A DNA stretch of 64,000 nt, from positions 124,001-188,000 of the forward strand of contig NZ_JAETXX010000006.1 in NCBI RefSeq assembly GCF_021764745.1. The letters are read 5' to 3'. How positions within the stretch are numbered: the stretch's first letter is position 1; the number at the start of each line of letters is the position of its first letter. Under the pieces are notes generated by a model that was not told the origin of the DNA, did no database searches, and saw only the letters and a list, made by a program, of their open reading frames with translations. Below are positions 27,505 through 45,652 of this stretch, in pieces. The position numbers were made by a program, and so were the translations under genes. This DNA comes from Joostella atrarenae. Lineage in GTDB: Bacteria > Bacteroidota > Bacteroidia > Flavobacteriales > Flavobacteriaceae.

Positions 27505-27526
27505 TAAATCTAAGTATAAATACTTA
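27505..27526 (-). promoter_or_regulatory. NarL-like site fused to the porin -7 box
   Basis: On the minus strand, heptamers TAAGTAT and ATACTTA with a TT spacer (27526 to 27511) end in the TA that opens the -7 box TAGATTTA (27512 to 27505). The same arrangement precedes narK and nirB. The -7 box ends 15 nt before the porin ATG. Confidence 0.65.
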
Positions 27527-27557
27527 ATTAATATACATAAACACGTAATTTTTGTGG

Positions 27558-27587
27558 TAATGATTAAAAAAATAATCATTATGTTTG
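27558..27587 (+). promoter_or_regulatory. moeA promoter with 24-bp palindrome
   Basis: TAATGATTA-A6-TAATCATTA (27558-27581) is a perfect 9-bp inverted repeat. Its final TA is also the first TA of the -7 box TATGTTTG (27580-27587), a perfect TANNTTTG, 21 nt before the moeA ATG. The palindrome differs from the NarL-like heptamers, so a different regulator is likely. Confidence 0.6.
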
Positions 27588-27608
27588 TTTTAGTTTAAAG
27601 ATAAAGAA

Positions 27609-28781
27609 ATGATTTCTGTAAAAGAAGCAATTACGTCAATTCTAGACAATTCTATTTCCTTAGGAACTCATCATATTCATATAACTAAAGCATCCGACTC
27701 TTATTTGTCATCGAATATTTACTCAACTATAAATCTACCACTTTTTCGTCAATCAGCAATGGATGGTTTTGCAGTTTGTCAATATAATGGTGATTCTTAT
27801 AAGATTATTGGTGAAATACAAGCGGGTGATAGTAAGGATATAGCATTAAAGAAAGGCGAGGGAGTTAGAATTTTTACAGGGGCACGAGTTCCTAAAGATG
27901 CTGATATCGTTATAATGAAGGAGTATGTGGAAGAGTCTGGTGATGAAATTTTACTACAAAAAAAAATATCACAGAAAACTAATATTAGAATTCCGGGAGA
28001 ATTAATTAAAGAGGGAGACTTAGCTTTAAAAAAAGGAACTTTATTAAATAGTGCTGCACTTGGATTCTTAAGTGGACTAGGTGTTGATAAAGTTACAGTC
28101 TCACAAAAACCACGAGTAGCTATTTTAGTTACAGGTAATGAGTTGGAGAAAGCAGGTACTCCGTTAACTGAAGGTAAAATTTACGATAGTAACTCTATAA
28201 TGTTACAAATGCTATTAAAAAAGGCAGGGGTAACGATTGTAGATTGTTTTAATGTCGAAGATACACAAGCAGCTTCTACTTCTATAGTAAAGGAAGTTTT
28301 GGAAGCATATGATTTTATTATCGCTTCTGGAGGGATTTCGGTGGGCGATTATGACTTAATGAGAAATGCTTTTCATATAAATGGTGTGGATGAAAAATTT
28401 TATAAAATAAATCAGCGGCCAGGGAAGCCTATTTATTTTGGAAAGAAAGATAATACTTTGGTGTTTGGACTTCCAGGGAATCCAGCAGCATGCTTTATAA
28501 ATTATCAAGCGTATGTACTTCCTGCACTTCAATTAGCTATGGGGAAGATCACTGATACCCTTTTTAAAACGGCAACTTTAGAAGATGCTATCACAAATAC
28601 TACAAAAAGGAGTTTGTTCTTAAGAGCTGAGGTAAAAGGTTCTTCAGTAAAAATTTTTAAGAATCAGAATTCGGCAATGCTTCAAAGTCTAGTAAATGCC
28701 AATGCTCTTGTATATATTTCTGAAAAAACTACACAAATAGAAAAGGGAGAAGAAGTTCGTTATTTGGAGATTCTTCAGTAA
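27609..28781 (+). CDS. moeA: Molybdopterin molybdenumtransferase
   Basis: This 390-aa cytoplasmic enzyme inserts molybdate into adenylylated molybdopterin to form Moco. Recognisable segments are LPLFRQSAMDGFAV, GEGVRIFTGARVPKDADIVIMKEYVE, VAILVTGNELEKAG, the DFIIASGGISVGDYD nucleotide motif and NTLVFGLPGNPAACFINYQAYVLPAL. The length is normal. It is the first gene of moeA-moaE-moaCB (gaps 35 and 43 nt), divergent from the porin. It supplies cofactor to the nitrate reductase at 32021-35542. Confidence 0.95.
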   Translation: MISVKEAITSILDNSISLGTHHIHITKASDSYLSSNIYSTINLPLFRQSAMDGFAVCQYNGDSYKIIGEIQAGDSKDIALKKGEGVRIFTGARVPKDADIVIMKEYVEESGDEILLQKKISQKTNIRIPGELIKEGDLALKKGTLLNSAALGFLSGLGVDKVTVSQKPRVAILVTGNELEKAGTPLTEGKIYDSNSIMLQMLLKKAGVTIVDCFNVEDTQAASTSIVKEVLEAYDFIIASGGISVGDYDLMRNAFHINGVDEKFYKINQRPGKPIYFGKKDNTLVFGLPGNPAACFINYQAYVLPALQLAMGKITDTLFKTATLEDAITNTTKRSLFLRAEVKGSSVKIFKNQNSAMLQSLVNANALVYISEKTTQIEKGEEVRYLEILQ

Positions 28782-28816
28782 CTTTATGATTCGAATGAAT
28801 TTTATAATGATTTAAG

Positions 28817-29254: not shown

Positions 29255-29297
29255 GAGCAGAAACCTTCTTTTTATTTAAATAAGCAATACCCAAAAT

Positions 29298-30566: not shown

Positions 30567-32009
30567 TCAACTCAGTTCTTTAATCATATTTAGCCTTTTC
30601 ATGGCTGCTTTTGGTGCTTCACATAAAGAGCAGCAGTATTCATTTGGGAGTTGTTCAAAAGCTGTATTTGCAGGAATATCTTGTGTTAAGTCTCCATAGG
30701 TAGGATCGTAAATGGTAAGGCATTCGCCGCATTGGTATACTTCCGTTTCTATCTCTTTTTTAATTTCTATTTCCTTTTTAGGAGTTTCTTTTTCTTCACC
30801 TAAAGTATCAAAATACATTTTACTAAGTTCCATAAGTAAACCTGGGAGCTCTACTTTATCTACATCTTGAACATGTGTTAGGTATTCTATGGTATTAGGA
30901 TCAAAATTCTTTGCATAAAGTAAATTGTAAGTGTCTCGAATTTTAAAATCACCTAATGCTTCTGGCTGTCTATTTTTTTCAATAACAATAGAGGTAAAAT
31001 AGTATGCCTTTTTCGTATAGTCTGTAATTCCAAATGTAAGTCCGTAAGTACTAATATCATTTTGATCAAAATTAGAAACCAAGTATTTTTTTAGCTTTAA
31101 AGCATCTTTATTATTTACAGGAAGATGCCAGTTAAGCTCCAACATTGAGTGACGAACATTAATACCGCGCTTTCCTAAGAATTTCTCCCATTTAAGCTTA
31201 AACTCTGTTTGAATTCCTTTTATGATAAAAGATTTCCAAGGAGTAATACATATTTTTCCAATTTTACATTCAGCACATAAATCGCACATAGCTTTTAGAA
31301 AATCCAAGTCGTATTTATTATTCCTCCAATACAAGCCTAACCAGTATTTATCCGATCCCATTCTATTCATTCCTTCATAATATGGAAAAGGGTAGAAAGG
31401 AACATCTAAAGGCGTGTCAACAGTTCTATTATTGGTGTCGATTGCATCATTTACAAGCTCGAACACCATATTAATAGTTTCGGGTTCTTCTTGAAGTAAC
31501 TCTTCTATAGCAAGCGATACTTTTGCAATATCCCAACTGTAAATTAGAGCGGGGTACATTACTATTTCTTCCCAATTTGGGAGTCGTACATACAAATACC
31601 AATAATCATCGTGAGCAGAAGCTATAAAGTTCAAATGCCCAGTAAAAAGAGGGACAAGACGTTGTTTAGGGTCCGTAATATTTATTTTCAATAAGGGATG
31701 ATGTCTAAATTGCTCTAAAATATATAAATAGCGATCTCCTGTAAGCCACGAATTTTTAGGAAAAATATCAGCAGAAACATAAGAACAAACAATATTTTCT
31801 GTTCCCTTTTCATTCGGAGCAATCCATTCTAAATCGTTAAAATTAGCTATGGATTCTTTAGCTATTTCTTTTGAAAAAAGGATGTCTTGTCGGGAGCCAA
31901 ATGAAATAGTTTTTAAGCCTGAATTTTCAGCAGCTTCAGCAATCGATTTTAATTCTCCAGGAGACAAAACACCGCCTTTTATGATTAATCTGTTCAGTTC
32001 TTTATTCAT
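30567..32009 (-). CDS. Rubredoxin-tailed redox protein of nitrate assimilation
   Basis: This is a 480-aa protein with a C-terminal rubredoxin domain (about 420-470): ligands CGEC and CSLC enclose YDPTYGDLTQDIPANTAFEQLP. The first 400 residues show segments like nitrite/sulfite reductase ferredoxin-like half domains (LIIKGGVLSPGELKSIAEAAENSGLKTISFGSRQDI), but the siroheme-binding cysteine motif is not seen. CDLCAECKIGKICITPWKSFIIKG could hold a metal or cluster. It starts 11 nt after the nitrate reductase gene, clearly one operon, so I infer an electron carrier to nitrate or nitrite reductase. A Lys/Glu-rich linker precedes the rubredoxin. Confidence 0.7.
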   Translation of the reverse strand: MNKELNRLIIKGGVLSPGELKSIAEAAENSGLKTISFGSRQDILFSKEIAKESIANFNDLEWIAPNEKGTENIVCSYVSADIFPKNSWLTGDRYLYILEQFRHHPLLKINITDPKQRLVPLFTGHLNFIASAHDDYWYLYVRLPNWEEIVMYPALIYSWDIAKVSLAIEELLQEEPETINMVFELVNDAIDTNNRTVDTPLDVPFYPFPYYEGMNRMGSDKYWLGLYWRNNKYDLDFLKAMCDLCAECKIGKICITPWKSFIIKGIQTEFKLKWEKFLGKRGINVRHSMLELNWHLPVNNKDALKLKKYLVSNFDQNDISTYGLTFGITDYTKKAYYFTSIVIEKNRQPEALGDFKIRDTYNLLYAKNFDPNTIEYLTHVQDVDKVELPGLLMELSKMYFDTLGEEKETPKKEIEIKKEIETEVYQCGECLTIYDPTYGDLTQDIPANTAFEQLPNEYCCSLCEAPKAAMKRLNMIKELS

Positions 32010-32020: not shown

Positions 32021-35000
32021 TTAAGCTAAAACACTACTATTTTTTAATAATTCCCTTACTTCCGTTTTACAACTTCCGCAGCCGAGACCAGCTCCTGTTT
32101 GTTTGCATAATTCAGTAAAATCAGAACACCCATTACGGATTACTTCTTCAATATTTCCAACGCCCACTTGACTACATGAACATACGAGATTCCCCATTAC
32201 AGGCTTTGTATTTGTAGCACCACGGAGTAAGGTATTTCTTTTATCGGAGAGTTCCATTTTGCCTTCAATCATTTCCTTGAATTCAGCAAACTCATTTTTA
32301 TCTCCCATTAGAATAGCACCCACTAATAAATCGTCTTTTACAATGCATTTTTTATAATACCTTTTTGTGGCATCCATAAAAATAATTTCTTCATAGCTAG
32401 TATCGTTTTCCGGAACATTTATATCTCCAATACTACAAAGGTTGAGGTCATTAAATTTTAAAATATTCATCAGTACGGAGCCTTTGTATCCGCTGCTAAT
32501 ATCTCCAGCAATAAAATTTGCTAGAATATTGGCTTGCTCTTCCGCAGCAGAAGTAATACCAAAAAGTTCGTTATTAAATTGAGCAATCTCTCCAATTGCA
32601 TAGATTGATGGATCCGAGCTTTGTAAATGCTGATTGATTTTAATTCCGCGACCGCAGTCGATACCAGCATGTTTTGCAATCTCAATATTTGGACGTGTAC
32701 CAATAGCGTAGACAATAGCGTGTGCATTAAAGTTTTTCCCGCTTTTTAGAGTGATTGATAGATCCCCATTTTCATCATCGTCAAAAACGGTACTTACCTC
32801 ATTATCAAAATATATTTGAACCCCTCTTTCTTGAACATCTAAGGCTAGTAATTTACTTGATGTTTTGTCCAACTGACGTTCCATTAAACGAGAAGAACGT
32901 TGAACGATTGTAATTTTTACACCTTGGTGTTTTAATGCTGCTGCGAGCTCTAAACCGAGAAGTCCGCCACCAACAATTACAACGTGTCGCTCTTCAGTAG
33001 GAAGGTTTGTATTTTCTAAGTGGCTTTTAAAATTGTCGGCATCACTTTTACTTCTCATGGTAAATCTTCCAGGAAGCTCCAATTGAACATCATTAGGAAC
33101 AAAAGCACGACTTCCAGTTGCTAGAACTAGTCGGTCGTATTGATGTATATTCCCGTAGCTATCCTTAATATGTTTATTTTCTTTATCAATAGAAACAATA
33201 GAAGTACTACCATGCAGCGTTATTTTAAGCTTTGAGAGCTCATTTTCTTTTAATTTCTGAAGTTGCTCCCATGAAAGTTCTTCTGTGATATATTCTGGTA
33301 ATAAAACTCTATTATAAAATGGATGAGGTTCTTCAGAAAAGGCATGTATTTCATGATGAATAGTATGCTCTCTATAATTTTGAATAAACCTAAAAGCAGC
33401 AGCTCCAGCTCCTACAACTATTATTTTTTCTCTTTGCTTTTTATATTTAGATACTGCAACTGCTGTAAACTTAAAGTCAGGTTCTTTAGACTGCGGATCT
33501 ACAATAGTATTGGTTAGATTATTAGCTCTGTTGAGGTCACTTTTTAATACTTTACCCCAATGCATGGGTATAAATATCACCCCTTCACGAACGCTATCTG
33601 TTACTTTTGCCCGCAATCTTACCACTCCGTTTTTACTTTTTATTTCTGAAACGTCTCCGTTTTTAATTCCGTATAGATAAGCATCAACAGGATTTATTTC
33701 TAAAACGGGAGTAGGGTAGTGCGTATGTAAACGAGATACCTTCCCTGTTTTTGTCATTGTATGCCATTGATCACGAACCCTTCCAGTGGTCAAGATTAGA
33801 GGATATTCGCTAGAAGGTTGGATGGAAGCATTTTCTGTACTATAAGGAACATTAAAAATTGCTTTCTGAGAAGGAGTATAGAACTTCTTATCTTCAAAAA
33901 GGCGTGTTGTTCCTTTATGTCTATAAGCTGGCACTGGCCATTGCATGGTGCCTTCATTTTTAAGTCGGTCGTAATTCAGAAAAGAAATGTCAATATTTGT
34001 GCCTTTGGTCATCGCACAATACTCTTTGTAGATTTCCTCTGTAGCATTGTAATTAAAGCCTCTAAACCCCATTTTATTAGCGAAATCGCATAATATTTCA
34101 ACATCAGGCCTAGCTTCTCCAGGAGCATTGATAACTTTTGGGAGGTAAGAAATCCTACGTTCAGAGTTCGTCATAGTTCCTTCTTTTTCCAACCACCCGG
34201 CAGCAGGTAAAAGTAAATCCGCCATTTTTGTGGTATCAGATTTATGAGAGATATCCTGAACGATAACAAATTTTGCATTTTTTAATGCTTTTTCGACCCT
34301 TCTAACATTCGGCATACTTACCAATGGATTTGTACAAACAATCCACACCGCTTTTAGTTTTCCTTTCTCCAGGGCATCGAACATTTCTGTGGCTGTATAT
34401 CCAGGTTTTCCTGAGATACTATTTACACCCCAGAATTGAGCAACTTCTTTTCGGTGTTCTTCATTGAATAGATTTTTATGAACTGCTAATAAATTGGCCA
34501 TTCCACCAACTTCGCGGCCTCCCATGGCATTTGGTTGCCCTGTTAAGGAGAAAGGTCCAGCTCCAGGTTTTCCAATCTGACCAGTAATTAGTGATAAATT
34601 TAGGAGTGAAAAGTTCTTATCAGTACCAACTACACTTTGATTAAGCCCCATTGCCCACATGCTTATAAAACCTTTAGCAAGGCCAATCATATCGGCAGCT
34701 TTTTTTATGTCATTTTCGGGAACACCGCAGATTTTAGCGGCTTTTTTTATAGAAATTCCTAGAATTTGTTCTTTATACTTCTGAAAATCTTCCGTGTGGT
34801 TTTTTATAAAATTATAATCGATCAATCCACGTTCTAACAGACGCCTCCCTATGGCATTATGGAGTACAACATCGGTTCCAGGAATAAGTTGTAAGTGTAA
34901 ATCAGCAAATTTAGCAGAATCAGTTTTTCTAGGATCGATTACAATTACTTTTACGTTTGGATTCTCTTCTTTATGCTTTTCAAGTCTTCGAAAAAGAATA

Positions 35001-35542
35001 GGGTGACACCAAGCAGGGTTCGCTCCAGAAATTAGAAAACAGTCAGCCAATTCGATGTCTTCATAACCAATTGGAACGGAGTCTTCTCCAAAAGTTTTTT
35101 TATAACCAACAACTGCAGAACTCATGCATAATCTAGAGTTGGTGTCGATATTATTGGTACCTAGAAACCCTTTTGTTAGTTTATTGGCAATATAGTATTC
35201 TTCGGTTAAACACTGCCCAGAAACATAGAAACCTACGCTATCTGGACCGTGTTTTTTTATAATTGATTTAAAAACAGAAGCAGCCCTTTCCATGGCATCA
35301 TCCCAAGAAACACGCTCTCTAGGATGTGATTTACTCCATCGCATTTCTGGATATAAAATTCTATCAGAAGTATCGTTGGCTACATAGTGAAGGTTCATCC
35401 CTTTTGAGCATAACATCCCCTTATTCACTGGATGATCTTTATCTCCTTCCACATGAACTTTGTTTTGAGCATCTTTTTTTATTATTATGCCACAGCCAAC
35501 GCCACAATAGGAACAGGTAGTTTTTACTTCTTCTTTCAGCAT
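32021..35542 (-). CDS. Assimilatory nitrate reductase fused to FAD/NAD(P)H reductase and BFD domains
   Basis: This is a 1173-aa cytoplasmic fusion. Residues 1-690 form a NasA/NapA-type molybdopterin oxidoreductase: [4Fe-4S] ligands C10, C13, C17, C45 (CSYCGVGC...CSKG) and likely Mo ligand C139 (NSRLCMSSAV). Residues from about 700 are an FAD-dependent pyridine nucleotide reductase (IIVVGAGAAAF; VVIVGGGLLGLELAAAL; IYAIGEIAQ). The last 60 residues carry a BFD-type [2Fe-2S] domain (CSCSQ...GLGCGSC). It combines the usual catalytic and electron-transfer subunits in one chain, so NAD(P)H could feed nitrate directly. No signal peptide is present. It follows narK and precedes the rubredoxin-tailed gene (11 nt). 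Confidence 0.93.
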   Translation of the reverse strand: MLKEEVKTTCSYCGVGCGIIIKKDAQNKVHVEGDKDHPVNKGMLCSKGMNLHYVANDTSDRILYPEMRWSKSHPRERVSWDDAMERAASVFKSIIKKHGPDSVGFYVSGQCLTEEYYIANKLTKGFLGTNNIDTNSRLCMSSAVVGYKKTFGEDSVPIGYEDIELADCFLISGANPAWCHPILFRRLEKHKEENPNVKVIVIDPRKTDSAKFADLHLQLIPGTDVVLHNAIGRRLLERGLIDYNFIKNHTEDFQKYKEQILGISIKKAAKICGVPENDIKKAADMIGLAKGFISMWAMGLNQSVVGTDKNFSLLNLSLITGQIGKPGAGPFSLTGQPNAMGGREVGGMANLLAVHKNLFNEEHRKEVAQFWGVNSISGKPGYTATEMFDALEKGKLKAVWIVCTNPLVSMPNVRRVEKALKNAKFVIVQDISHKSDTTKMADLLLPAAGWLEKEGTMTNSERRISYLPKVINAPGEARPDVEILCDFANKMGFRGFNYNATEEIYKEYCAMTKGTNIDISFLNYDRLKNEGTMQWPVPAYRHKGTTRLFEDKKFYTPSQKAIFNVPYSTENASIQPSSEYPLILTTGRVRDQWHTMTKTGKVSRLHTHYPTPVLEINPVDAYLYGIKNGDVSEIKSKNGVVRLRAKVTDSVREGVIFIPMHWGKVLKSDLNRANNLTNTIVDPQSKEPDFKFTAVAVSKYKKQREKIIVVGAGAAAFRFIQNYREHTIHHEIHAFSEEPHPFYNRVLLPEYITEELSWEQLQKLKENELSKLKITLHGSTSIVSIDKENKHIKDSYGNIHQYDRLVLATGSRAFVPNDVQLELPGRFTMRSKSDADNFKSHLENTNLPTEERHVVIVGGGLLGLELAAALKHQGVKITIVQRSSRLMERQLDKTSSKLLALDVQERGVQIYFDNEVSTVFDDDENGDLSITLKSGKNFNAHAIVYAIGTRPNIEIAKHAGIDCGRGIKINQHLQSSDPSIYAIGEIAQFNNELFGITSAAEEQANILANFIAGDISSGYKGSVLMNILKFNDLNLCSIGDINVPENDTSYEEIIFMDATKRYYKKCIVKDDLLVGAILMGDKNEFAEFKEMIEGKMELSDKRNTLLRGATNTKPVMGNLVCSCSQVGVGNIEEVIRNGCSDFTELCKQTGAGLGCGSCKTEVRELLKNSSVLA

Positions 35543-35711: not shown

Positions 35712-37136
35712 TTATCCATTTGCAGTAGCCAATTCTCCAGAAGCCTGCTTTAATTCTCTTTGAGCTATTTTTTCATCTTGAGCTGAGAATCTTATCGCTA
35801 AGGCACATAATCCTGTTACTACTACCAACATACCTATCATTAAGTAACCACTAGAAACCGCTGAAGCAGCAGCTTCTGATTGGGCAGCTTTTATGGCGGC
35901 TTCACCCATTCCTTGATGATCTGCAATGGCAATTTTTTCTGCTACTGCAGATTTAGACTTTAATAAAATAGCAGCAAGAAAAGCTCCTACATTTCCACCT
36001 GCACCTACAATCCCAGAAATAGATCCAATAGCTTTTTTATTGATAAATGGTACAACAGAAAATGTTGCGCCTTCCGCCATCTGAACAGATAAACTAAAAG
36101 CTATTAAGAATATAATTCCAGCAATTAAGCTTGTCATTGTAGAAAATATAGTAAGCATCAAACCTTCTACCGTAAGGATGGCTACTAGAAATAGAACGCG
36201 TCCTCGGAGGCCTTTACTTTTTCCAAACTTATCCCCGAAAAACCCGCCAAGAGTACGAGCAAAAATATTCATTAGAGCAAATGATAAGACAATATTACCT
36301 GCTGTAATTCTTTCTAGCTGAAATGTGTTTTGTAAATAATCGTCCATCGTTCCATATACTGTAAGTTCAATTCCGAAACACGAAGCATAAACGATAAATA
36401 AAATCCAAACTCTATAATCTTTAATAGCTTCAAGGAAACCAACTTCATCCCTTTTCCCTTTAGGTATTTTTTTACCTTTTTCTCTAAGTTCCTTTATATT
36501 ACCTTCTGGAGTATCTTGAGTAAAGAAATAATATGCAATTCCCATTAAGAAGCATACAGTACCAGCTATAACCATTGCATAGCGCCATGCCTCAGTTTCT
36601 GCAACACCAAAACCGATAACAGCCGCTGCAATAAGTGGCATTCCTAGTCGGTTTGCTCCACCACCAAGATTACCCCATCCTGCAGAAGTAGCATTTGCTG
36701 TTCCCACAACATTTGAAGCGAACATCAAAGAGGTATGTACTTGTGTAATTACAAAAGAAGCTCCTATAAAGCCAATAAAAAATCTACATAATAAGAATTG
36801 AAATGGTGTTTGTACCAATCCGCTTAATATAACAGGAATAGACCCTAATACTAAAAGCCATGTGTAACATAATCTTGGACCATATTTATCACATAATTTT
36901 CCGATTAGCAAACGTGCAAATACAGTTCCTGTTACAGCTAGAATAACGGCATTCCATTTTTGATCTGGAGATAATCCTAGTTCTCTTACCACATCGGGCA
37001 TGAAGGGCACAATACCAAACCATGCGAAGAAACACATGAAAAAGGCAATGGAAGACATCCAAAATGTTCTTATTGGAATACTTCTTAGATCTGTTAAATT
37101 TAACTTGGTCGCTTTAGTTGTAACTGTTGTTTTCAT
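35712..37136 (-). CDS. narK: NarK-type nitrate/nitrite transporter
   Basis: This is a 474-aa inner membrane MFS protein of the nitrate-nitrite porter family with 12 transmembrane helices. The helix 5 nitrate signature reads GWGNLGGGANRLGMPL and is partly repeated as GIVGAGGNVGAFLAAIL; FFAWFGIVPFMP in helix 1 is typical. It imports nitrate (or exchanges nitrite) for the reductase encoded 169 nt downstream on the same strand; no terminator is seen between. The promoter carries a NarL-like heptamer pair joined to the -7 box. Length normal. Confidence 0.94.
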   Translation of the reverse strand: MKTTVTTKATKLNLTDLRSIPIRTFWMSSIAFFMCFFAWFGIVPFMPDVVRELGLSPDQKWNAVILAVTGTVFARLLIGKLCDKYGPRLCYTWLLVLGSIPVILSGLVQTPFQFLLCRFFIGFIGASFVITQVHTSLMFASNVVGTANATSAGWGNLGGGANRLGMPLIAAAVIGFGVAETEAWRYAMVIAGTVCFLMGIAYYFFTQDTPEGNIKELREKGKKIPKGKRDEVGFLEAIKDYRVWILFIVYASCFGIELTVYGTMDDYLQNTFQLERITAGNIVLSFALMNIFARTLGGFFGDKFGKSKGLRGRVLFLVAILTVEGLMLTIFSTMTSLIAGIIFLIAFSLSVQMAEGATFSVVPFINKKAIGSISGIVGAGGNVGAFLAAILLKSKSAVAEKIAIADHQGMGEAAIKAAQSEAAASAVSSGYLMIGMLVVVTGLCALAIRFSAQDEKIAQRELKQASGELATANG

Positions 37137-37156: not shown

Positions 37157-37178
37157 TAAAATTAAGTATTAATACGTA
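37157..37178 (-). promoter_or_regulatory. NarL-like site fused to the narK -7 box
   Basis: On the minus strand, TACGTAT and ATACTTA with a TA spacer (37178 to 37163) end in the TA opening the -7 box TAATTTTA (37164 to 37157), 20 nt before the narK ATG. It has the same architecture as the porin and nirB promoters. Confidence 0.65.
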
Positions 37179-37336
37179 ATAATTAAAATATAAATTAAGT
37201 ATTTAAGTAGAATTATCAAATTGAAAATTTTGACAATCAAAATTGAAATATTTGTAATTCAGTAGAATAAAATATGAAAATAGTGGAAACTAGCTAGAGA
37301 GTTAATTGTTTAAATACGTAGTTTTTAGCGTTTAAG

Positions 37337-37996
37337 TTAAAGGAGATTATAAGTATTAGCTTTATTCGCAAGTTCCATTTGATTCTTTACATCTAATTTT
37401 TTCATTAGATTAAATCGATGTACTTCAGCAGTTCTTTTACTTATTTTAAGTTCTTCCGCAATTTCTTTATTACTTAGTCCTTTTAATACATGAGTAAGTA
37501 TTTGCTTTTCTCTTTTGGTAAGATTAAAGTCATTTTCAGTAGTCGCTGTGTTAGTGGACAACTTAGGCTTTCCATCAACAAAATTATTAATGATGATAGA
37601 AGAAACATCTCCAGTAAAATATTTTCCGCCTTCGGCAACGGTATGTAACGCCTTTATAAATTCTTCTTTACTGGCACCTTTTAATAAGTATCCATCTGCT
37701 CCAGCTTGAATCGATTTAACTACGTATTCTTCAGAATCATGCATGGAGAGTACTAATGCTTTTACTTCTGGAGTTGTTTTTTTTAACTGCTGAACAACTT
37801 CAATCCCATTCATTTCGGGCATTCTAATATCTACGACTAACAGATCAGGCTTATTTTTAGCAATGATTTCTAAAGCTTCTTTACCATTCGAAGCTTCATC
37901 GATTACATTTATTGATTTATCATCTTCCAATAAAGATTTTATCCCATCTCTAACTAGAACATGATCGTCTGCTAGAATAATATTAATTTGCTCCAT
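37337..37996 (-). CDS. NarL-type response regulator
   Basis: This is a 219-aa response regulator of the NarL/FixJ class. The receiver (1-120) has D10/D11, phospho-acceptor D56 (VVDIRMP) and lysine in LLKGAS. The C-terminal LuxR-type HTH (about 150-215) reads LTKREKQILTHVLKGLSNKEIAEELKISKRTAEVHRFNLMKKL. It is the likely partner of the NarX-like kinase at 40197-42008, although a lipoprotein gene lies between them. I infer that it binds the 7-2-7 heptamer sites before porin, narK and nirB. Its own upstream region has inverted half-sites TAAGTAC (38015-38021) and ATACTTA (38036-38042), suggesting autoregulation. Confidence 0.92.
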   Translation of the reverse strand: MEQINIILADDHVLVRDGIKSLLEDDKSINVIDEASNGKEALEIIAKNKPDLLVVDIRMPEMNGIEVVQQLKKTTPEVKALVLSMHDSEEYVVKSIQAGADGYLLKGASKEEFIKALHTVAEGGKYFTGDVSSIIINNFVDGKPKLSTNTATTENDFNLTKREKQILTHVLKGLSNKEIAEELKISKRTAEVHRFNLMKKLDVKNQMELANKANTYNLL

Positions 37997-38050
37997 AGTT
38001 GTTATCGTAGAATCTAAGTACGAAAATACGAAATAATACTTAATTTAATA

Positions 38051-40126
38051 TTATAGCGATACATTAGGTTCGATAAAAAAATTGGCTCTACAGCTAGTGT
38101 AACTATCTAACTCTTCTCTTTTAAAGTAACTAGAAATAATTATTAGTTTGCCTTTGTAATCATTAAATGTGGCCATAGGATACCCCAGCGTTGGATATGT
38201 ATCATACTGGTATTGATTACGCCGTTTAATAACAATTAATTGCTTATTGAAATTTTCATGATTAGTAGAGATATCATCATGATTAGCAGCGTAAAGTTCG
38301 GTTGCATTTTTGCCCCATCCTAAAAAGTATTCTGGAGCAGAATTAGTCATTACTAATTGAGTTTGATTTACTAGGTATATATCTCCTGTATCTAAGTTAA
38401 AAAGTTCATCAGTAGCAGGTTCATATAAAGTACGTGTTTTCCATTGAGATTGAATGCTTATAGCTGTCTGACCAGTAATATCGATTAGGCCTTGATCATC
38501 TATCTCTATGTTTAGACTATAATTAATTTCTTTATGTCCAAGAAGGAAGTTATTAGTTGATGTAGGAATTAAGTGATAAGCATTTGTACTTAAAATTCTA
38601 TCAAAATGAGGTTTACTATCAATCATAGAGAATCCCTCTGAATCTCTTCGGTAGCTTATAAGATGTGTTTTATTGACAAAAAGATAAATTCCATTATCTA
38701 TATATTCAAAATCACTATAGGTTGTGATTTCATATCCTGATTCACCATTTTCATGTAATAAATTAAGATTGTCAGCATCATATATATGTAAATTGCCATT
38801 ATGATTAACAAATAACTCATTTCCTTGATCAGAATTTATTAATTTCATTTCTATACCGGAATATAGTCTTATTCCAGTTTTTTTAGCAACAACTTTTTTA
38901 GTTTCATAATTATATTTAATAATATTATAACCAGTGCCGTTCTTTTCACCTAATCCATTTAAATATATGTAAGGTGCTTTTGGATCATGAGTAAATTGTT
39001 CAATATTGTAGAGGTCAATTAATCCTTCTCTTTCGAAATCTACTTGTTGTCTTAAGTCTAAGTTCTCATATTCTATAGAGGTATTTCCAAAAATATCCTC
39101 AACATAAACTATATATACTGGATTCTTGATATATGAAAATTCATCCGTGAAGTTTAGGGTTTCTTTTTCGTATATTTTTTTTAAAATCTGGGTGTTTCCT
39201 TCAGATTTTATAGGCTGCGCATCAGGATTATCTCCATATACTAATACAGTGTAATTTGAGAAATATGGGGATTGTGACTCTTCCCACTCTAATTCTACTT
39301 GCTGATTTACTACAGTAGGTTGCTTTAAAAAAATTTCTCTCACATGTAATGACCCAGTAAAAACTTTTTGTAATTCACTTTCCCCTAAAAGACCATTTTC
39401 ATTATATATTTTAAAATAGTAATAAAGCTTATCTTGAATAGGAGGATCTAAATCTATAAAAGAATTAATTTTAATGTCATCAATAGTTTTAATTAGAGTA
39501 GCATTATTTTTTGAAAGGGTAGTGCTTCTATAAATTTCATATCGCTCAAATCCATTTACACCTACATAAGTTTGCCAATTGAACTCAATTTGCTCTATGT
39601 GTTCTTCGTTGGTATTCTGTTCAAAAGTATCAGAATATAAATCTTTATCTTCAGCTGGAGTATATGAGTGAGCAGTAAAACTAAAAATCTGGTCTTGTAA
39701 ACTCGCGCTCACATCCATTTTTATCTTGAATATAAGTGTATTATCTGTAGCTTTAATAATAACAATTTCATCAGACTTTCCATTTGCATCTGTAATTGTA
39801 AGAATACCATTATTTAATTTCCAAGAAGAAGTTATTACATTCGCTGTGCAATTATATGAATCTGAATAGATATATTCTCTGTATTTGCCATCCGAAGTAA
39901 TTGAAGTAAAGTCACTTCCACATTCTGGTCTAGACGGCTGTATTATAGAAATTTCTCCATTATATTCAACTGTACTCATAGCCCAATTGCCAGCGATATC
40001 CTCCATTTTCACAGAAGTTAAAGCATTTGCATAAAACAAATCTTCAGGAGTTTGCTCATCATCTTTATCACATGCATAAAAGATGATTCCTACGAAAAAT
40101 ATAATCAAAATTTTAAAAATCTTCAT
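38051..40126 (-). CDS. Large lipoprotein with lipocalin-like and fibronectin-III-like domains
   Basis: This is a 691-aa exported lipoprotein, lipobox FYAC (Cys19) followed by DKDDE. Residues about 35-150 resemble a lipocalin-like domain (DIAGNWAMSTVEYNGE...SWKLNNGILTITDANGKSDEIVII). Residues about 170-340 contain two fibronectin-III-like beta-sandwiches (IEFNWQTYVGVNGFERYEIYRST; VELEWEESQSPYFSNYTVLVYG). The remainder looks like a beta-propeller of YNYETKKVVAKKT-type strands. Function unknown. It sits between the nitrate sensor kinase and its response regulator on the same strand, 70 nt after the kinase and 54 nt before the regulator, so it is probably expressed with them. Confidence 0.65.
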   Translation of the reverse strand: MKIFKILIIFFVGIIFYACDKDDEQTPEDLFYANALTSVKMEDIAGNWAMSTVEYNGEISIIQPSRPECGSDFTSITSDGKYREYIYSDSYNCTANVITSSWKLNNGILTITDANGKSDEIVIIKATDNTLIFKIKMDVSASLQDQIFSFTAHSYTPAEDKDLYSDTFEQNTNEEHIEQIEFNWQTYVGVNGFERYEIYRSTTLSKNNATLIKTIDDIKINSFIDLDPPIQDKLYYYFKIYNENGLLGESELQKVFTGSLHVREIFLKQPTVVNQQVELEWEESQSPYFSNYTVLVYGDNPDAQPIKSEGNTQILKKIYEKETLNFTDEFSYIKNPVYIVYVEDIFGNTSIEYENLDLRQQVDFEREGLIDLYNIEQFTHDPKAPYIYLNGLGEKNGTGYNIIKYNYETKKVVAKKTGIRLYSGIEMKLINSDQGNELFVNHNGNLHIYDADNLNLLHENGESGYEITTYSDFEYIDNGIYLFVNKTHLISYRRDSEGFSMIDSKPHFDRILSTNAYHLIPTSTNNFLLGHKEINYSLNIEIDDQGLIDITGQTAISIQSQWKTRTLYEPATDELFNLDTGDIYLVNQTQLVMTNSAPEYFLGWGKNATELYAANHDDISTNHENFNKQLIVIKRRNQYQYDTYPTLGYPMATFNDYKGKLIIISSYFKREELDSYTSCRANFFIEPNVSL

Positions 40127-40196: not shown

Positions 40197-42008
40197 CTAA
40201 ATAGGAACATTGATGGTAACTCTCGTGCCTTTTCCAGGGGAAGAATTCATAAATAAACGACCGTTAATGTAATTTATTCGTTCTTTCATAAAAGTGAGTC
40301 CCATTCCTCCTTCACCATTTTCTCTTGGTTTTAATTTATTGGTGTCGAAGCCTTTTCCGTTATCGTCAATAGTGACACTGAGGAGCTCCTTGCTATGGGA
40401 AACAGTGATAATAATATGTGTAGAATCAGCATATTTAATGGCGTTATTTACTGCTTCTTGGGTAATTCTGTAAATATTAATTTCAGCAAGAGAATCTAAG
40501 CGATCACTAAATTCAGTTTTATTAAAAAGTACAATATTCTTACCTGTAAATTTTGCTAGTTCTTGAGTAAGTTTAGAAAGCGCAGGAACAACTCCATGAT
40601 CGGTTAATTCTGGAGGTGTTAAGTTAAATGTAGCTGTTCTAACACCTTTGATTATGTTTGAAGTCAGCTCTTTTAAATGTTCAATTTTTTCGGCTGCTTT
40701 GGCTGTATTTTTAACATCAATACTTTCAATATTAAATTTTAAACCGGTTAACATTTGTCCTATTCCATCATGAATATCTTTGGCAATTCTATTTTGTTCT
40801 TGCTCTTGGTTTTCTATGATTTTTGCTGACAATGTTTTCTGCTGATCAATTTTAGCTTCAAAGCGCTCTTTATTTAGTCGCTCTATCTGTAGTTGTGCTT
40901 TTTTTCGCTCGGTAATCTCAAAACAAATGAGTAGTAATTCTTCCTTTTGATCTCCTGGATGATAAGGGATAACAGACATTTCTAGCCAAATAGCTTCATC
41001 ATTGGTAAGCGTTCCTTTAATTTCTCCTTGCCAGCCTGTATTTTGATTATTACTGATTATGTTTTCTATCTGTTCTTGTTCTTTTTCATCCGTAGAAATA
41101 ATTTCTGAAAACTTTGTTGTTGTACTGAAACTTCTATGATTAAACTTGCTAGAAAACTTACTTCCTAAATGTACCAAATAGCCATCGGGAGTAATACGGG
41201 CAAACAATAATGTTTGTTCCATAACCAAGCTTAAAGCTTTTAACTGGTTAACAGATTTCTCTTTTGCTTGGCTTAAAACATCAGCATTATAAGCCATTTC
41301 TTTAGCCTTTTCTTCGGAAACTAATAGATTTTTAATCGTTTGTTTGGTGCGTTTTGCTGCTGGCCAGAAGATAAATAAAAACTCAGCTAATAAAATTGCA
41401 AGCGTTACCACAAGTAAAATAGATTCTAACTTCTGAAGCTTTTCTACTTTATGAGTTGCTTCTTTGTCGTATTGATTCACAATGCGATCCATAATAGCTA
41501 GAAATTCTTGCTCCTGAATTAATAGAACTTTTATTTCTTGCTGAAAATCATCTTTAAAGATAGTTGCATCTGTATTTGCTTCGTGAAGAATATTATTTAC
41601 TGAAGTCTGAATCTGACTAAAGGAAGGTTGCAACTCATCAAACATCTCTTTTATAGCCTCAGAATTATCACCTTCAATGTGTAAACTGTCATTACCATTT
41701 TGAAGTGATTGATGTGAAGACTCCCAAAGGAGAAGTGTTTTTTTAATCTCAATTAAGGCGTCTTTTTTATCTAAAGAACCTTCTTTATTAGAAAGTAATA
41801 GTACTTCTTTGGTTAGTTTCTGACTCAACATTCGCTGTCTACCAGCAATATTTATAATTTTAGCATCGTCTTGTTGGTCGCTTAAAAACTTACGAACTAA
41901 TAACTGACTTATAATTACGGATAGCGCAATAGCGCTTAAAGCTATAATGTATAGTTGTCTAAGCTTGTTGAAAGTATTTTGGTCTAACGAGTTGACCTTT
42001 GTGCTCAT
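40197..42008 (-). CDS. NarX-like nitrate sensor histidine kinase with PAS domain
   Basis: This 603-aa membrane kinase has transmembrane helices at about 18-40 and 193-215 flanking a periplasmic PilJ-N/NarX-like four-helix sensor. Residues 49-65 read AKIINIAGRQRMLSQKL, equivalent to the NarX/NarQ P-box; Arg59 aligns with the nitrate-binding arginine of NarX. A cytoplasmic PAS domain (about 265-375), a HisKA_3 phospho-acceptor in AKDIHDGIGQMLTGL (His near 412) and an HPK7-type ATPase with EAVNNAIKYA and GGMGLTFMKERI follow. The nearby NarL-type regulator is the expected partner. It follows DUF4202 by 6 nt in the nir operon. Confidence 0.92.
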   Translation of the reverse strand: MSTKVNSLDQNTFNKLRQLYIIALSAIALSVIISQLLVRKFLSDQQDDAKIINIAGRQRMLSQKLTKEVLLLSNKEGSLDKKDALIEIKKTLLLWESSHQSLQNGNDSLHIEGDNSEAIKEMFDELQPSFSQIQTSVNNILHEANTDATIFKDDFQQEIKVLLIQEQEFLAIMDRIVNQYDKEATHKVEKLQKLESILLVVTLAILLAEFLFIFWPAAKRTKQTIKNLLVSEEKAKEMAYNADVLSQAKEKSVNQLKALSLVMEQTLLFARITPDGYLVHLGSKFSSKFNHRSFSTTTKFSEIISTDEKEQEQIENIISNNQNTGWQGEIKGTLTNDEAIWLEMSVIPYHPGDQKEELLLICFEITERKKAQLQIERLNKERFEAKIDQQKTLSAKIIENQEQEQNRIAKDIHDGIGQMLTGLKFNIESIDVKNTAKAAEKIEHLKELTSNIIKGVRTATFNLTPPELTDHGVVPALSKLTQELAKFTGKNIVLFNKTEFSDRLDSLAEINIYRITQEAVNNAIKYADSTHIIITVSHSKELLSVTIDDNGKGFDTNKLKPRENGEGGMGLTFMKERINYINGRLFMNSSPGKGTRVTINVPI

Positions 42009-42014
42009 AATTTT

Positions 42015-42599
42015 TTAAGCTAATGCTCGTTTAATAAGCGATAAACTGTTGTCACTTAGGGGTAATTTTAAAGCTGCTTTATGTCCTTTGTTAGACATTT
42101 TTCCCCATGTTTTCTGAAGTATATCGATAAGTTTTTCATCGGAATGTTTATCAGCAAAATCTTCAAAATAATACTGTAAAAAGACTAAACATATAACATC
42201 TTCTAGCGTTTGTGTTCCTTCATCTTTTTTCAACATTTTTTTTCTAATTAAAAAAGATACTCGCTCAGAGAATTCATCGTCATAACCAACTTCTTTTAAA
42301 ATCTCTGAAGTTACATCAGCATGCATTTTTTTAAGCTCTTCTCTCCATTTTAAGTAGCCAACGCGGTCCATAGGGTAGGAGTTACGCTCTATTTTCCATC
42401 TTTCTATATGTTGTGCTCTTGCTGCAATTTGTAATTCTTCAGTAGCCGTAGGTTCAAAAGAAAGCAACGTCTCCGTCATACGTTGGGAATACAATAATTC
42501 TTTTGGATATGTTTTCCCTTGGTAAGTTTCAGTATTTGGATCTTGAGCGTTTGCACGATCTATTTTTTCAATTGCTTCTTTAAAATTTGGTTGGCTCAT
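42015..42599 (-). CDS. DUF4202 family protein
   Basis: This is a 194-aa all-helical cytoplasmic protein of family DUF4202 with the typical opening FKEAIEKIDRANAQDPN and the conserved AARAQHIERWKIERNSYPMDRVGYLKWREELKKMHA. Several conserved His, Asp and Glu residues (QHIERW, KKMHAD) suggest a metal site, perhaps HD-like; this is inference. The family often accompanies nitrate and nitrite reductase genes, but its function is unknown. It lies 11 nt after nirD and 6 nt before the sensor kinase. Confidence 0.82.
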   Translation of the reverse strand: MSQPNFKEAIEKIDRANAQDPNTETYQGKTYPKELLYSQRMTETLLSFEPTATEELQIAARAQHIERWKIERNSYPMDRVGYLKWREELKKMHADVTSEILKEVGYDDEFSERVSFLIRKKMLKKDEGTQTLEDVICLVFLQYYFEDFADKHSDEKLIDILQKTWGKMSNKGHKAALKLPLSDNSLSLIKRALA

Positions 42600-42610
42600 A
42601 TTTGTGTTTA

Positions 42611-42988
42611 TTAATCTGTGAAGCCAATATACACATTTTCATTTTCAATTTTAACAGGATAAGTAGCAATTTTGTAGTCCTCTCCATTTAAGTTCTCTCC
42701 ATTTTCTAAGGAAAATGTTTTTTTGTGAAGCGGACACGCTACTTTTGGAATTCCGCTTAGATCACCAACCATACCACGAGAAAGTACCATTTCCATTTTA
42801 TGAGGACATAGATTCTGACAAGCATACCAAGCAGATTTTCTCGCAAAATGATACACAGCAATCTGCTTAGATTTATACTTTACACATGCACCGCCATCTT
42901 TAGGGAAGTCGTTTATATTTCCAGCTTTAAACCAATGCATAACTTTGTTTTGTGTGACCGATTGATATTGTTGAAGTAGTTGTTCCAT
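42611..42988 (-). CDS. nirD: Nitrite reductase small subunit (Rieske type)
   Basis: This is a 125-aa Rieske-fold protein partnering NirB. The [2Fe-2S] ligands are complete, CPHK (CQNLCPHKMEMVLSRG) and CPLHKK (VACPLHKKTFSLENG), unlike some enterobacterial NirD that lack them. It starts 113 nt after nirB and is followed closely by DUF4202. The 113-nt gap holds degenerate ACTG/CAGTT-type repeats but no terminator. Confidence 0.93.
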   Translation of the reverse strand: MEQLLQQYQSVTQNKVMHWFKAGNINDFPKDGGACVKYKSKQIAVYHFARKSAWYACQNLCPHKMEMVLSRGMVGDLSGIPKVACPLHKKTFSLENGENLNGEDYKIATYPVKIENENVYIGFTD

Positions 42989-43101
42989 AATTTAAATATT
43001 GCGAGGTTAGTATTGTTTTTTCTGAAATTCCTCAGTTCTCAGTTGACATTATTTTCACAACTAACTATCTGCCAACTGATAAACTGATTACTGTAAACAT
43101 A

Positions 43102-45612
43102 TTATACCCATGCTTTAGGCATTTTTTGATCTCTAAGTGCTACATATTCTATGTTGCTATCTCTTTCGTCTGTATTTACAAAGTGCTTAAAGCGTTTCAT
43201 CATTTCTGGATCTTCAATGGCTTGTTTCCATTCGCACTCGTATTTATTTACAAGACTTTGCATTTCTTTTTCTAAATCTTCAGCTATTTCTAAAGAATCT
43301 TCAATAATTACTTTTTTAAGGTATTCTATTCCTCCGTCTAATTTATCTAACCAAGGAGCTGTGCGGGTAAGGGGAGCTGCAGTTCGGATGTAATACATTA
43401 AAAATCTATCTAAATATTTAACACAGGTTTCGTCATCCAATTGTTCCGCCAATAAGATAGCGTGTTTGGGCGTAGCACCTCCGTTACCACATACGTATAA
43501 GTTCCATCCGCCATCCACAGCAATTAGTCCAAAGTCTTTTCCTCTTGCTTCTGCACATTCTCTGATGCATCCAGAAACACCGCCTTTTAATTTATGAGGT
43601 GAGCGTAACCCACGATATCTGTTTTCAATCTCGATTGCAAAAGAGACACTTTCATGCATTCCGTAGCGACACCACGTTGATCCAACACAACTTTTTACCG
43701 TTCTTAATGATTTACCATAAGCGTGACCACTTTCAAAACCAGCGTCTATTAATTCTTTCCAAATAAGAGGTAATTCATGTAACTCAGCTCCAAAAAGATC
43801 AATTCTCTGTCCTCCAGTAATTTTAGTGTATAGATCATATTTCTGCGCTACTTTTCCTAAAACCATTAATTTTTCAGGTGAAATTTCTCCTCCAGCAACC
43901 CTAGGAACAATAGAATAAGTTCCATTACGTTGGATGTTTGCTAAAAACTTGTCGTTTGAATCCTGAATGGTAACTTGCTTATTTGCTGTTTCCATATAGA
44001 TGCTAGCAAATAATGAAGCCAAAGCAGGTTTACAAGTTTCACACCCGTCTCCTTTTCCAAAGAGATCCAAGGCTTCGTCATATGTTTGTACATTATTTAC
44101 TTTAATAAGATCGTACAATTCTTGTCGGTTATAATTAAAGTGTTCACATAATGTTTCTTTAACTTCTTTTCCTAGAGATTTTAAAGTTTCATTTACTAAA
44201 TCTACAACCATCGGCTTACAACCTCCACAACCACTAGTTGCTTTAGTAGCCTTAACTACATCAGAAAGAGAACAACAAGTTTCGTCTTTTATCATTCCGC
44301 AAATGCTTCCTTTTGTAACACTTTCACAAGAACATATTTGAGCAGTATCTGGGAAATCCATTACACTTCCTACTGAGGAGCTTTCACCACCTCGAGCGCC
44401 TAAAATTAGATCTTCAGGATTTTCTGGGAGTTTCATTTCATTGATGTATAATTGAAATAGAGTATTATAATCAGAAGAATCTCCCACTAGAATTCCTCCT
44501 AAGAGTTTTGTTCCGTCTTTAGTAACATTAATTCTCTTGTAAATACCTTTGTGTTTGTTTTCAAAAGAAATAACAGATACATTATCATTTTCTATGAAGG
44601 GATCTCCAAAACTAGCAACTTCTGTTCCTATAAGTTTAAGTTGTGTAGACATATCTATGGAAGAAACCATTTTAATGTCTCCTCCAGTAATTTGTTCCAC
44701 AGCAACGTTTGCCATATCGTAACCTGGAGCAACTAAACCATAAATACCTTCGTTATAAAGCGCTACTTCTCCAATAGCATATACATCTTCTGCCGATGTT
44801 TGCATTTTATTATTTACCCAGATACCTCCGCGTTCACCAACTTTTATCCCTGCATCTCTAGCAAGCTCATCTCTAGGGCGGATCCCCGCAGATATAATTA
44901 ACATATCAACTTTTAAGGAAGAGTTATCATTAAACTGCATAGCTTCAATTGAATCTTCACCGACAATCTCTGAAGTAGCTTTTTCTAAATGGACTTTAAT
45001 ATCCATTTGTTCTATTTTGCTTTTTAATAGGTTACTTGCAGGCAGATCTAATTGTCTTGGCATTAAACGAGGAGCGAACTCTATTACATGAGTTTTCATT
45101 CCTAATTCTTTAGCTGCATTTGCTGCCTCTAATCCTAAAAGTCCACCTCCAAGCACGGCTGCCTGTGTTTTGCCTTCTTTTTTAATTTTAGAAGCATAAC
45201 TTTTCATCGCGTCTAAATCTTCTAAAGTACGATATACAAATACTCCAGATTTTTCTGACCCTTTAATAGGGGGAATGAAGGGGGAGGAACCTGTTGCTAT
45301 AACTAAGTAGTCGTAATTGTATATTTCCTTTTTATACGTAGTAATCTCTTTTTTCTGAGTATCGATATTAGAGATTAGTGAAGAAGTATGTAGAGTGATT
45401 TTATTTTCTGAATACCATTCTGTTGGAGCCATTAATAGCTCCTCTGCAGACTTTTCACCAAAGTACTCGCTTAGATGAACTCTATCGTAAGCTGGCCTAG
45501 GTTCTTCTCCGAAGACTTCGATTTCAAAATCATTTCTATTGGCTTTGTTTATAAGTTTTTCACAGAACTTATAACCAACCATTCCATTTCCGATAACTAT
45601 GACTTTCTTCAT
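43102..45612 (-). CDS. nirB: NAD(P)H-dependent assimilatory nitrite reductase large subunit
   Basis: This is an 836-aa cytoplasmic flavo-siroheme enzyme reducing nitrite to ammonium. The N-terminal FAD/NAD reductase (1-400) has VIGNGMVGYKFCEKL and VLGGGLLGLEAANAA. A BFD [2Fe-2S] region (about 425-475, CSCES...SGCGGCKP) is followed by a second partial one (GDGCETCKP). The C-terminal ferredoxin/sulfite-reductase-like half (about 560-800) carries siroheme/[4Fe-4S] ligands CVGSTWC and CIREC. The length is typical. It is the first gene of nirB-nirD-DUF4202-sensor kinase and has a NarL-like site joined to its -7 box. Siroheme synthesis genes are absent from the window. Confidence 0.95.
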   Translation of the reverse strand: MKKVIVIGNGMVGYKFCEKLINKANRNDFEIEVFGEEPRPAYDRVHLSEYFGEKSAEELLMAPTEWYSENKITLHTSSLISNIDTQKKEITTYKKEIYNYDYLVIATGSSPFIPPIKGSEKSGVFVYRTLEDLDAMKSYASKIKKEGKTQAAVLGGGLLGLEAANAAKELGMKTHVIEFAPRLMPRQLDLPASNLLKSKIEQMDIKVHLEKATSEIVGEDSIEAMQFNDNSSLKVDMLIISAGIRPRDELARDAGIKVGERGGIWVNNKMQTSAEDVYAIGEVALYNEGIYGLVAPGYDMANVAVEQITGGDIKMVSSIDMSTQLKLIGTEVASFGDPFIENDNVSVISFENKHKGIYKRINVTKDGTKLLGGILVGDSSDYNTLFQLYINEMKLPENPEDLILGARGGESSSVGSVMDFPDTAQICSCESVTKGSICGMIKDETCCSLSDVVKATKATSGCGGCKPMVVDLVNETLKSLGKEVKETLCEHFNYNRQELYDLIKVNNVQTYDEALDLFGKGDGCETCKPALASLFASIYMETANKQVTIQDSNDKFLANIQRNGTYSIVPRVAGGEISPEKLMVLGKVAQKYDLYTKITGGQRIDLFGAELHELPLIWKELIDAGFESGHAYGKSLRTVKSCVGSTWCRYGMHESVSFAIEIENRYRGLRSPHKLKGGVSGCIRECAEARGKDFGLIAVDGGWNLYVCGNGGATPKHAILLAEQLDDETCVKYLDRFLMYYIRTAAPLTRTAPWLDKLDGGIEYLKKVIIEDSLEIAEDLEKEMQSLVNKYECEWKQAIEDPEMMKRFKHFVNTDERDSNIEYVALRDQKMPKAWV

Positions 45613-45630
45613 GACTACGTAATTTTAAGT

Positions 45631-45652
45631 CAAATATAAGTAAAAATACTTA
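45631..45652 (-). promoter_or_regulatory. NarL-like site fused to the nirB -7 box
   Basis: On the minus strand, TAAGTAT and TTACTTA with a TT spacer (45652 to 45637) end in the TA opening a perfect -7 box TATATTTG (45638 to 45631), 18 nt before the nirB ATG. Two TACGTAA words flank the site (45616-45622 and 45670-45676). Confidence 0.7.

Follow-up and report, generated by a model that had tools for sequence, protein, structure and literature searches.

A 7-2-7 inverted repeat fused to the −7 box as a candidate operator-promoter of NarX/NarL-type nitrate systems in Bacteroidota

Introduction

The closest described counterpart of the system treated here is the NarX/NarL nitrate two-component system of Escherichia coli, whose regulator NarL recognizes heptamers with the consensus TACYNMT. 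A 64 kb stretch of the Joostella atrarenae genome (called the window, that is, the whole DNA that was analysed) contains an island of nitrate genes that encodes a NarX-like sensor kinase and a NarL-type response regulator, and three promoters of this stretch carry a composite element in which an inverted repeat of two heptamers separated by 2 nt (7-2-7) is fused to the −7 promoter box. Comparisons with related genomes suggest that this composite is probably the operator-promoter of the NarX/NarL-type nitrate two-component system of Bacteroidota.

An engineered narG site of E. coli reads TACCCCTAAAGGGGTA (PMC4549865, PMC7419079). The cited passages place NarL, as an activator, at −44.5 and −77.5 (engineered, −67.5) in the ogt promoter and just upstream of the −35 element in that of yeaR (PMC7419079). 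The nitrate-sensing kinases of Bacteroidetes (genes narHK, narRR) are described, in the part of the review cited here, as having no HAMP or GAF-like domain and as carrying a PAS domain in Flavobacteriales and Cytophagales (PMC8199190). In Pseudomonas aeruginosa, the nitrate response of the outer-membrane porin OpdQ is reported to involve NarXL (PMC4694141). No description of the composite site was found in the open literature among the best 7 to 15 of 7 to 193 matches, judged by title and the beginning of the abstract; subscription papers and preprints lie outside this scope.

Composite sites in the window and in the genome

A first-pass annotation of the window had proposed composite sites at three promoters, and all of them are present, on the minus strand, where it had placed them. 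Each consists of TAMGTAT, two free positions, WTACTTA and then NNTTTR, and in all three the final TA of the repeat doubles as the TA of the Bacteroidetes −7 box, as had been claimed:

27505..27526, minus strand: composite site before the porin gene, TAAGTATTTATACTTAGATTTA; 7-2-7 core 27511-27526, −7 box 27505-27512
37157..37178, minus strand: composite site before narK, TACGTATTAATACTTAATTTTA; core 37163-37178, −7 box 37157-37164
45631..45652, minus strand: composite site before the nirB operon, TAAGTATTTTTACTTATATTTG; core 45637-45652, −7 box 45631-45638

The site of the porin promoter is a perfect palindrome, TAAGTAT-TT-ATACTTA. The start codon, which had been said to follow the motif after 15-20 nt, lies 15 nt away in the porin gene (ATG 27489), 20 nt in narK (ATG 37136) and 18 nt in nirB (ATG 45612). 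The pattern TAMGTATNNWTACTTANNTTTR has 3 matches in the window, which are these three sites, and the slightly wider TAMGTATNNWTACKTANNTTTR (composite TAMGTAT-NN-WTACKTA plus the −7 box) has exactly 3 matches in the 4 Mb genome (71 contigs), in the whole of which the reversed control pattern gives none.

When the 7-2-7 core is searched alone (TAMGTATNNWTACKTA), the genome yields a fourth exact copy (L001:1495-1516, contig C1) that adjoins an operon named by eye as sdh-like; on each strand its −7-like box deviates by one mismatch, and no start of a gene was found directly behind it. In our judgement this copy looks like chance, although a tie to succinate dehydrogenase is possible, and a one-mismatch site that was checked in locus L019 looks like chance as well. 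Clustered copies resembling TACGTATGGTAACGTA occur without a −7 box on contigs C7 and C56 of the same genome (L010-L012, L017, L018) and are probably a repeat family unrelated to the operator.

Conservation of the site before nirB and narK

Upstream regions were pooled from the window, from 46 further loci of family genomes, each a 20 kb island or a shorter piece of a contig, and from 80 named NarX loci, which include Galbibacter, Flavobacterium, Polaribacter, Tamlana, Salegentibacter and Algoriphagus, the last of which we take to belong to the Cytophagales. A region was left out if the 100 bp preceding its gene exactly repeated those of another, if it was shorter than 200 bp, if the match was below 50% identity or if the start of the gene could not be placed. 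The motif is conserved in these orthologous promoters, as the first-pass annotation would have it: among 115 distinct nirB upstream regions, 80 have an exact site, 31 a site with one mismatch (111 with at most one), three with two and one with four, and among 66 distinct narK upstream regions the site is exact in 39, has one mismatch in 19 (58 with at most one), two in six and three in two. Ten shuffles of each region gave sites with at most one mismatch in 1/1150 (nirB) and 0/660 (narK), and the reversed pattern is absent from the pooled nirB and narK upstream regions. For the 106 nirB and 56 narK promoters with no more than one mismatch and sufficient sequence upstream, mean pairwise identity reaches 0.82-0.83 within the motif, compared with 0.38-0.41 over the 60 bp upstream of it.

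The −7 box had been written as TANNTTTR, a form that holds at the sites of the window; the consensus of the family can be refined to TAnnTTTG, with G in 88% of the aligned nirB sites and 53% of the narK sites.

Co-occurrence with NarX and NarL

Among 199 genomes of the family, a close sensor (E at most 2.8e-91), NirB (E at most 1e-100) and a NarL ortholog (E at most 1e-50) are each present in 46, and these are the identical 46 genomes each time. Of the 46, 42 contain the exact composite, against 2 of the 153 genomes that lack close NarX, NarL and NirB (Fisher p 6e-36). Across the 199 genomes the reversed control pattern has 5 matches, of which two fall in NarX-positive genomes.

A second set of 365 genomes was drawn across the phylum Bacteroidota; NirB is present in 26 of them, 17 with a close sensor and nine without. 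In the 17, the nirB promoter carries the site with at most one mismatch in 15 genomes (L338 being an exact example) and with two mismatches in one; the remaining genome, G368, has a GC content of 61%, possesses NarXL and shows six TACGTA in the 220 bp before nirB. In all nine NirB genomes without close NarX, the 220 bp before nirB, the sole stretch examined, contain no TACGTA and are 4-7 mismatches away from the site. Thus, the flavobacterial NarXL regulon that had been proposed is borne out to the extent that the site tracks the NarX/NarL pair in the 199 family genomes and stands before nirB in none of the nine phylum genomes without a close pair. Genome-wide, 15 of the 17 have the exact composite, as do 9 of the remaining 348 phylum genomes, of which only those with NirB were searched for NarX; one of these nine, G415, has NirB, the composite lying on another contig.

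Matches in NarX-negative genomes were inspected individually. Those of L361-L365 (G455, G477 and G279; 8 sites) are palindromes running into T-rich sequence and look like terminators by eye; at 7 of the 8, no open reading frame (ORF) of at least 80 aa starts within 500 bp on that strand. Palindromes of this kind, resembling TACGTATTTATACGTATTTTT, can mimic the motif. At L366-L371 the next ORF starts 47-413 nt away, and at L192-L194 (G076, G042) 49-113 nt away; none of these ORFs is nitrate-related by eye.

The regulator and its recognition helix

The best match of the regulator among the sequences of PDB is 1a04, E. coli NarL (E 5.5e-39). It scores under the NCBIfam cut-off for NarL equivalogs (PRK10651, 168.3 bits against 250) and also under that of its best NCBIfam match, MctR (194 against 300). 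Its recognition helix reads S-K-R-T-A-E-V-H-R-F-N-L-M. Residues R188, T189, E191, H193, R194, F195 and N196 are invariant in 46/46 orthologs, some of them merely 52% identical overall, and are kept in G368; V192 is kept in 33/46. In two NirB genomes (L379, L380) that have a divergent NarL beside nirB and no site, E191 is replaced by A or D and F195 by A. The base contacts of E. coli NarL are made by K188, V189 and K192, with which E191, V192 and F195 of the flavobacterial regulator align. Recognition helix and operator appear to change together (2 negative and 47 positive genomes), and this joint change is the best evidence that this protein is the binder. The regulator encoded at 37337-37996 is very probably the one that binds the composite.

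Promoter architecture

The 7-2-7 geometry is the prevailing one, since a gap of 4 between hexamers is dominant (118 nirB and 59 narK pairs, against 50 and 16 for the next commonest). The core is followed by NNTTTR in 99/112 nirB and 49/57 narK cores, and 16 of the 21 that are not miss the box by one letter (hand count). In Flavobacterium psychrophilum, the cited passage gives the −7 box as −12 to −5 (PMC9723704), so the core covers about −26 to −11.

Besides the core, single TACGTA half-sites are frequent. In the window they are found at the following places:

45616-45621 (before the ATG), 45661-45666 and 45670-45675 (upstream), minus strand: extra TACGTA half-sites of the nirB promoter, with counterparts in relatives
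37315..37320, minus strand: TACGTA half-site far upstream of narK, from a pattern scan of the window

Extra half-sites lie upstream in 63/106 nirB promoters (1.4 expected) and before the ATG in 68/106 (0.6 expected, both from mononucleotide shuffles); the corresponding counts for narK are 39/56 and 12/56. Measured from the dyad with a period of 10.5 bp, their distances give a phasing R of 0.70 (nirB) and 0.53 (narK), in phase with the half-sites of the core, and the pooled R is 0.65 at 10.5 bp and 0.63 at 11. The 45 distinct positions, each counted once, give an R of 0.47 at 10.5 bp and of 0.51 at 11, values that none of 20,000 random placements reached. The extra half-sites may thus be described as roughly phased with the helix.

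A conserved −33 element was not found at the expected distance: TTG occurs at spacing 19-21 in 5/162 composite promoters versus 29/254 generic −7 boxes (p 0.003). A second conserved block resembling CAATTTGAGAAATT (ATTTGNNAAAT), followed by TAATAAT, is present in nirB upstream regions roughly 30-100 bp before the core (for instance, in L076 and L077).

Other promoters bearing the site

The other genes of the same loci were surveyed as ORFs of at least 150 aa with an upstream gap of at least 50 bp, duplicates being kept. The exact composite lies upstream of nirB in 84/125 cases, narK in 43/73, nasA in 10/81, narL in 1/91, DUF4202 in 0/124 and other genes in 20/552. These 20 genes, identified by Pfam for ten and by BLAST or eye for the rest, comprise nine porins, three narK-like transporters, three Crp/Fnr-like regulators, an NMT1-type (ABC binding-protein-like) lipoprotein, a tetrapyrrole methylase, a siroheme synthase and two unrelated-looking genes (HupE/UreJ and beta-lactamase family). 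Hence unrelated genes do not carry the motif at a similar rate, 18 of the 20 being nitrate-, siroheme-, porin- or Fnr-related.

NarX-positive genomes contain 34 further loci with an exact composite, which give 40 sites when strands are counted apart. The next gene, within 400 nt, is Crp/Fnr-like in 15 cases, nasA in five, narK in three, and narK-like, moeA, an Alginate_exp porin and a BBP2 porin in one each; three sites precede other genes (thioesterase-like and aconitase-like by eye, and one of no recognised kind), and ten have no ORF on that strand. Porin identities rest on Pfam for five proteins and on the reading of N-termini for seven more. In L185 (1047-3659), the BBP2 porin gene with its composite is followed by an ammonium transporter gene, an arrangement hinting at possible nitrate control of ammonium uptake in that genome.

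The Crp/Fnr-like regulator (L175:2229-2987 and 14 other loci) has an N-terminal C-x2-C-x4-C motif and a later cysteine, and the composite often stands before its gene. A close homolog (E<1e-80) is encoded in 34/46 NarX-positive family genomes and in 0/153 others. The ATTTGNNAAAT block of nirB upstream regions is weakly associated with this gene (23/34 genomes with it, 4/12 without, p 0.049).

The nitrate island

The island is a one-strand gene set made of nirB, nirD, DUF4202, the sensor kinase, a lipocalin-domain protein, the NarL-type regulator, narK, a nitrate reductase fusion and a rubredoxin-NIR_SIR protein, from which moeA, moaE and a moaC-mog fusion diverge. This order largely recurs in the loci of relatives. 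The features are as follows:

26221..27489, minus strand: Alginate_exp-family outer-membrane porin, target gene (Pfam match in the same frame, longer start)
30567..32009, minus strand: protein with a NIR_SIR ferredoxin-like half domain and rubredoxin, downstream of the nitrate reductase (Pfam)
32021..35542, minus strand: assimilatory-type nitrate reductase fused to a NirB-like reductase module (Pfam, NCBIfam)
35712..37136, minus strand: narK-type nitrate/nitrite transporter, target gene (299.7 bits, slightly under the family cut-off of 311.7)
37337..37996, minus strand: NarL-type response regulator, proposed binder, with receiver and LuxR/GerE helix-turn-helix domains (Pfam Response_reg, GerE)
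38027..38042, minus strand: degenerate site just before narL, with one core mismatch and an imperfect −7 box, TATTTTCG
40197..42008, minus strand: NarX-like sensor kinase with PilJ sensor, PAS, HisKA_3 and HATPase domains (Pfam)
42015..42599, minus strand: DUF4202 protein between nirD and narX (Pfam)
42611..42988, minus strand: nirD, nitrite reductase small subunit (Pfam, NCBIfam)
43102..45612, minus strand: nirB, nitrite reductase large subunit, first gene of nirB-nirD-DUF4202-narX (Pfam, NCBIfam)

The presence of a NarX-like sensor and a NarL-class regulator, asserted in the first-pass annotation, agrees with these domains, a PilJ-PAS-HisKA_3 kinase and a receiver-GerE protein; the P-box-like stretch of the sensor was recognised by eye. 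The Pfam listing of the kinase includes no HAMP or GAF match. Its nearest named relative, from Galbibacter mesophilus, is 74% identical, and a PDB sequence search with it returned mostly matches to kinase/ATPase domains; the others were EsxA and, weakly (E 0.07), a chemoreceptor. In the window narX and narL are 2.2 kb apart; in some family loci narL falls outside the sequence retrieved, and G180 carries nirB on a different contig from that of narX and narL.

Some neighbouring genes deserve a separate mention. The nitrate reductase fusion is a single protein of 1173 aa whose NirB-like module comprises Pyr_redox_2, Rubredoxin_C and BFD. A 691-aa protein with a lipocalin-like domain is encoded between narX and narL (38051-40126), and tblastn gives no match to it in any of the 46 family loci retrieved. 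The DUF4202 gene stands beside narX in 45 of these 46 loci.

Proposed mechanism and alternative explanations

According to the mechanism that we propose, a dimer of the regulator would sit on the 16-bp inverted 7-2-7 site, spanning about −26 to −11, the last TA of which is the TA of the sigma-A −7 box, and the TACGTA half-sites up- and downstream, about one helical turn apart, would bring more regulator to the same face of the DNA. The sensor would read nitrate, the inferred signal of the system, through its PilJ/P-box domain and phosphorylate the regulator, which would then switch on nirBD-narX(L), narK, nas and the porin gene and, in other species, also the Fnr-like gene, moeA and siroheme genes. 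If nirB through narL form one transcript, as gene order suggests in many relatives, the system would regulate itself; the degenerate site before narL is a hint of autoregulation. What the sequences themselves establish is the site with its fixed register, its conservation, its presence together with this NarL and the genes that adjoin it.

On balance, activation is somewhat favoured over repression as the effect of binding. The fixed register, the kind of genes targeted and the lack of any conserved −33 element suggest that activation takes place from within the core promoter. More tentatively, and with less than even confidence, the regulator may be a NarL-family activator acting inside the core promoter: its dimer would occupy the spacer and the first two −7 bases in one register, replace the missing −33 contact and spread over roughly phased half-sites from about −80 to the start codon, and it would have come with a rewritten recognition helix shared by Flavobacteriaceae and Algoriphagus (Cytophagales). 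To our knowledge, no activation from inside the core promoter is known for NarL or LuxR-type response regulators.

Several observations weigh against the proposed mechanism as a whole. The overlap of a site with the −7 box more usually suggests repression. TTG at spacing 18 is found in 8/162 composite promoters versus about 0.4% of generic ones (13/162 for spacings 18-21 together), in a comparison with generic −7 boxes that is noisy; this slightly weakens the case both for activation and for an activator inside the core promoter. The pooled phasing R is moderate at 9 bp (0.52) and weak at 10 (0.25). Four of the 46 NarX-positive family genomes (G001, G075, G129, G162) have no exact composite, near versions being present in their nirB promoters, and G368 has half-sites without an exact composite. 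In the family, NarX, NarL and NirB always occur together, and only genomes from outside it (nine without, two with) set them apart. Finally, the NarX-negative G455 and G477 (L361, L362) also encode LuxR-type regulators that are more distant (39% and 33% identity), to which their composite matches might be connected.

The alternative that survives best keeps the NarL-type binder and reverses the sign: the protein would sit on the −7 box and repress, with release once its state is altered by nitrate or by a second signal. This is unlikely but deserves attention, since it is in keeping with the overlap between site and −7 box, with the half-sites found downstream, before the ATG, in nirB promoters and with the TTG at spacing 18, and E. 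coli NarL is reported, in the passage cited, to repress frdA-lacZ (PMC4549865). However, the targets are nitrate-use genes, which are expected to rise with nitrate, the register between core and −7 box is fixed, of which occlusion has no need, and a conserved −33 element is lacking.

A binder other than NarL, namely the Crp/Fnr-like protein whose own gene would be autoregulated through the composite, is very improbable. Crp/Fnr proteins bind palindromes, and the composite precedes the gene at 15 of the 34 extra loci of NarX-positive genomes. However, the lone half-sites around the core suit binding by a NarL-family protein better, and a close ortholog is absent from 12 of the 46 family genomes, J. 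atrarenae among them, 10 of which keep exact composites.

That the motif arises from AT-rich composition, by chance or as a sigma-factor promoter variant without a regulator is highly unlikely: these genomes are AT-rich, −7 boxes are common and nine phylum genomes without a known close NarX have an exact match, but the motif is largely confined to the 46 genomes and to one gene set, TACGTA cluster even in a genome of 61% GC, and chance or AT bias is ruled out by the reversed-pattern control, the shuffles and the nirB upstream regions without NarX.

Significance

If the regulator-operator pairing proposed here holds, the nitrate two-component system found across a large group of bacteria from sea and soil would gain an operator code, and the nitrate regulon could be read from sequence in dozens of genera. 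Nitrate sensing would be tied to an Fnr-like regulator, porins, and siroheme and molybdenum cofactor genes. The system would also be a clear example of a recognition helix that appears to have changed along with its DNA site, and it raises the testable question of how a response regulator can work while touching the −7 box.

Comparison with known systems

The system shares with NarX/NarL of E. coli the pairing of a nitrate sensor with a LuxR-type regulator, and its heptamers share with those of NarL a TA(C) outer end and a T inner end. Set against the E. coli consensus TACYNMT, the TAMGTAT heptamer departs at position 4 in the form TACGTAT and at positions 3 and 4 in the form TAAGTAT. The site had been called unlike the enterobacterial heptamer; this does not apply to its geometry, which is the same 7-2-7, and holds for its sequence, where TACGTAT conflicts with the consensus at position 4 alone.

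Inverted heptamers with a 2-bp spacer for a dimer, together with single 7-base elements, are also common to the E. coli NarL operators of the cited passages (PMC4549865, PMC7419079). Unlike the ogt and yeaR positions given there (PMC7419079), the site described here is fused to the −7 box, with its centre at about −18.5. The porin of the window, an Alginate_exp-family barrel whose possible tie to nitrate rests on the shared site, differs from OpdQ, which comes from an unrelated host. The sensor has the architecture of the narHK class, with PilJ, PAS and HisKA_3 and no HAMP or GAF domain, its gene being near a distinct regulator and nitrate genes, as in the cited part of the review (PMC8199190). 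That review describes the sensors, and the word "heptamer" is absent from its text; to that account, the DNA site, the regulon and the recognition helix are now added.

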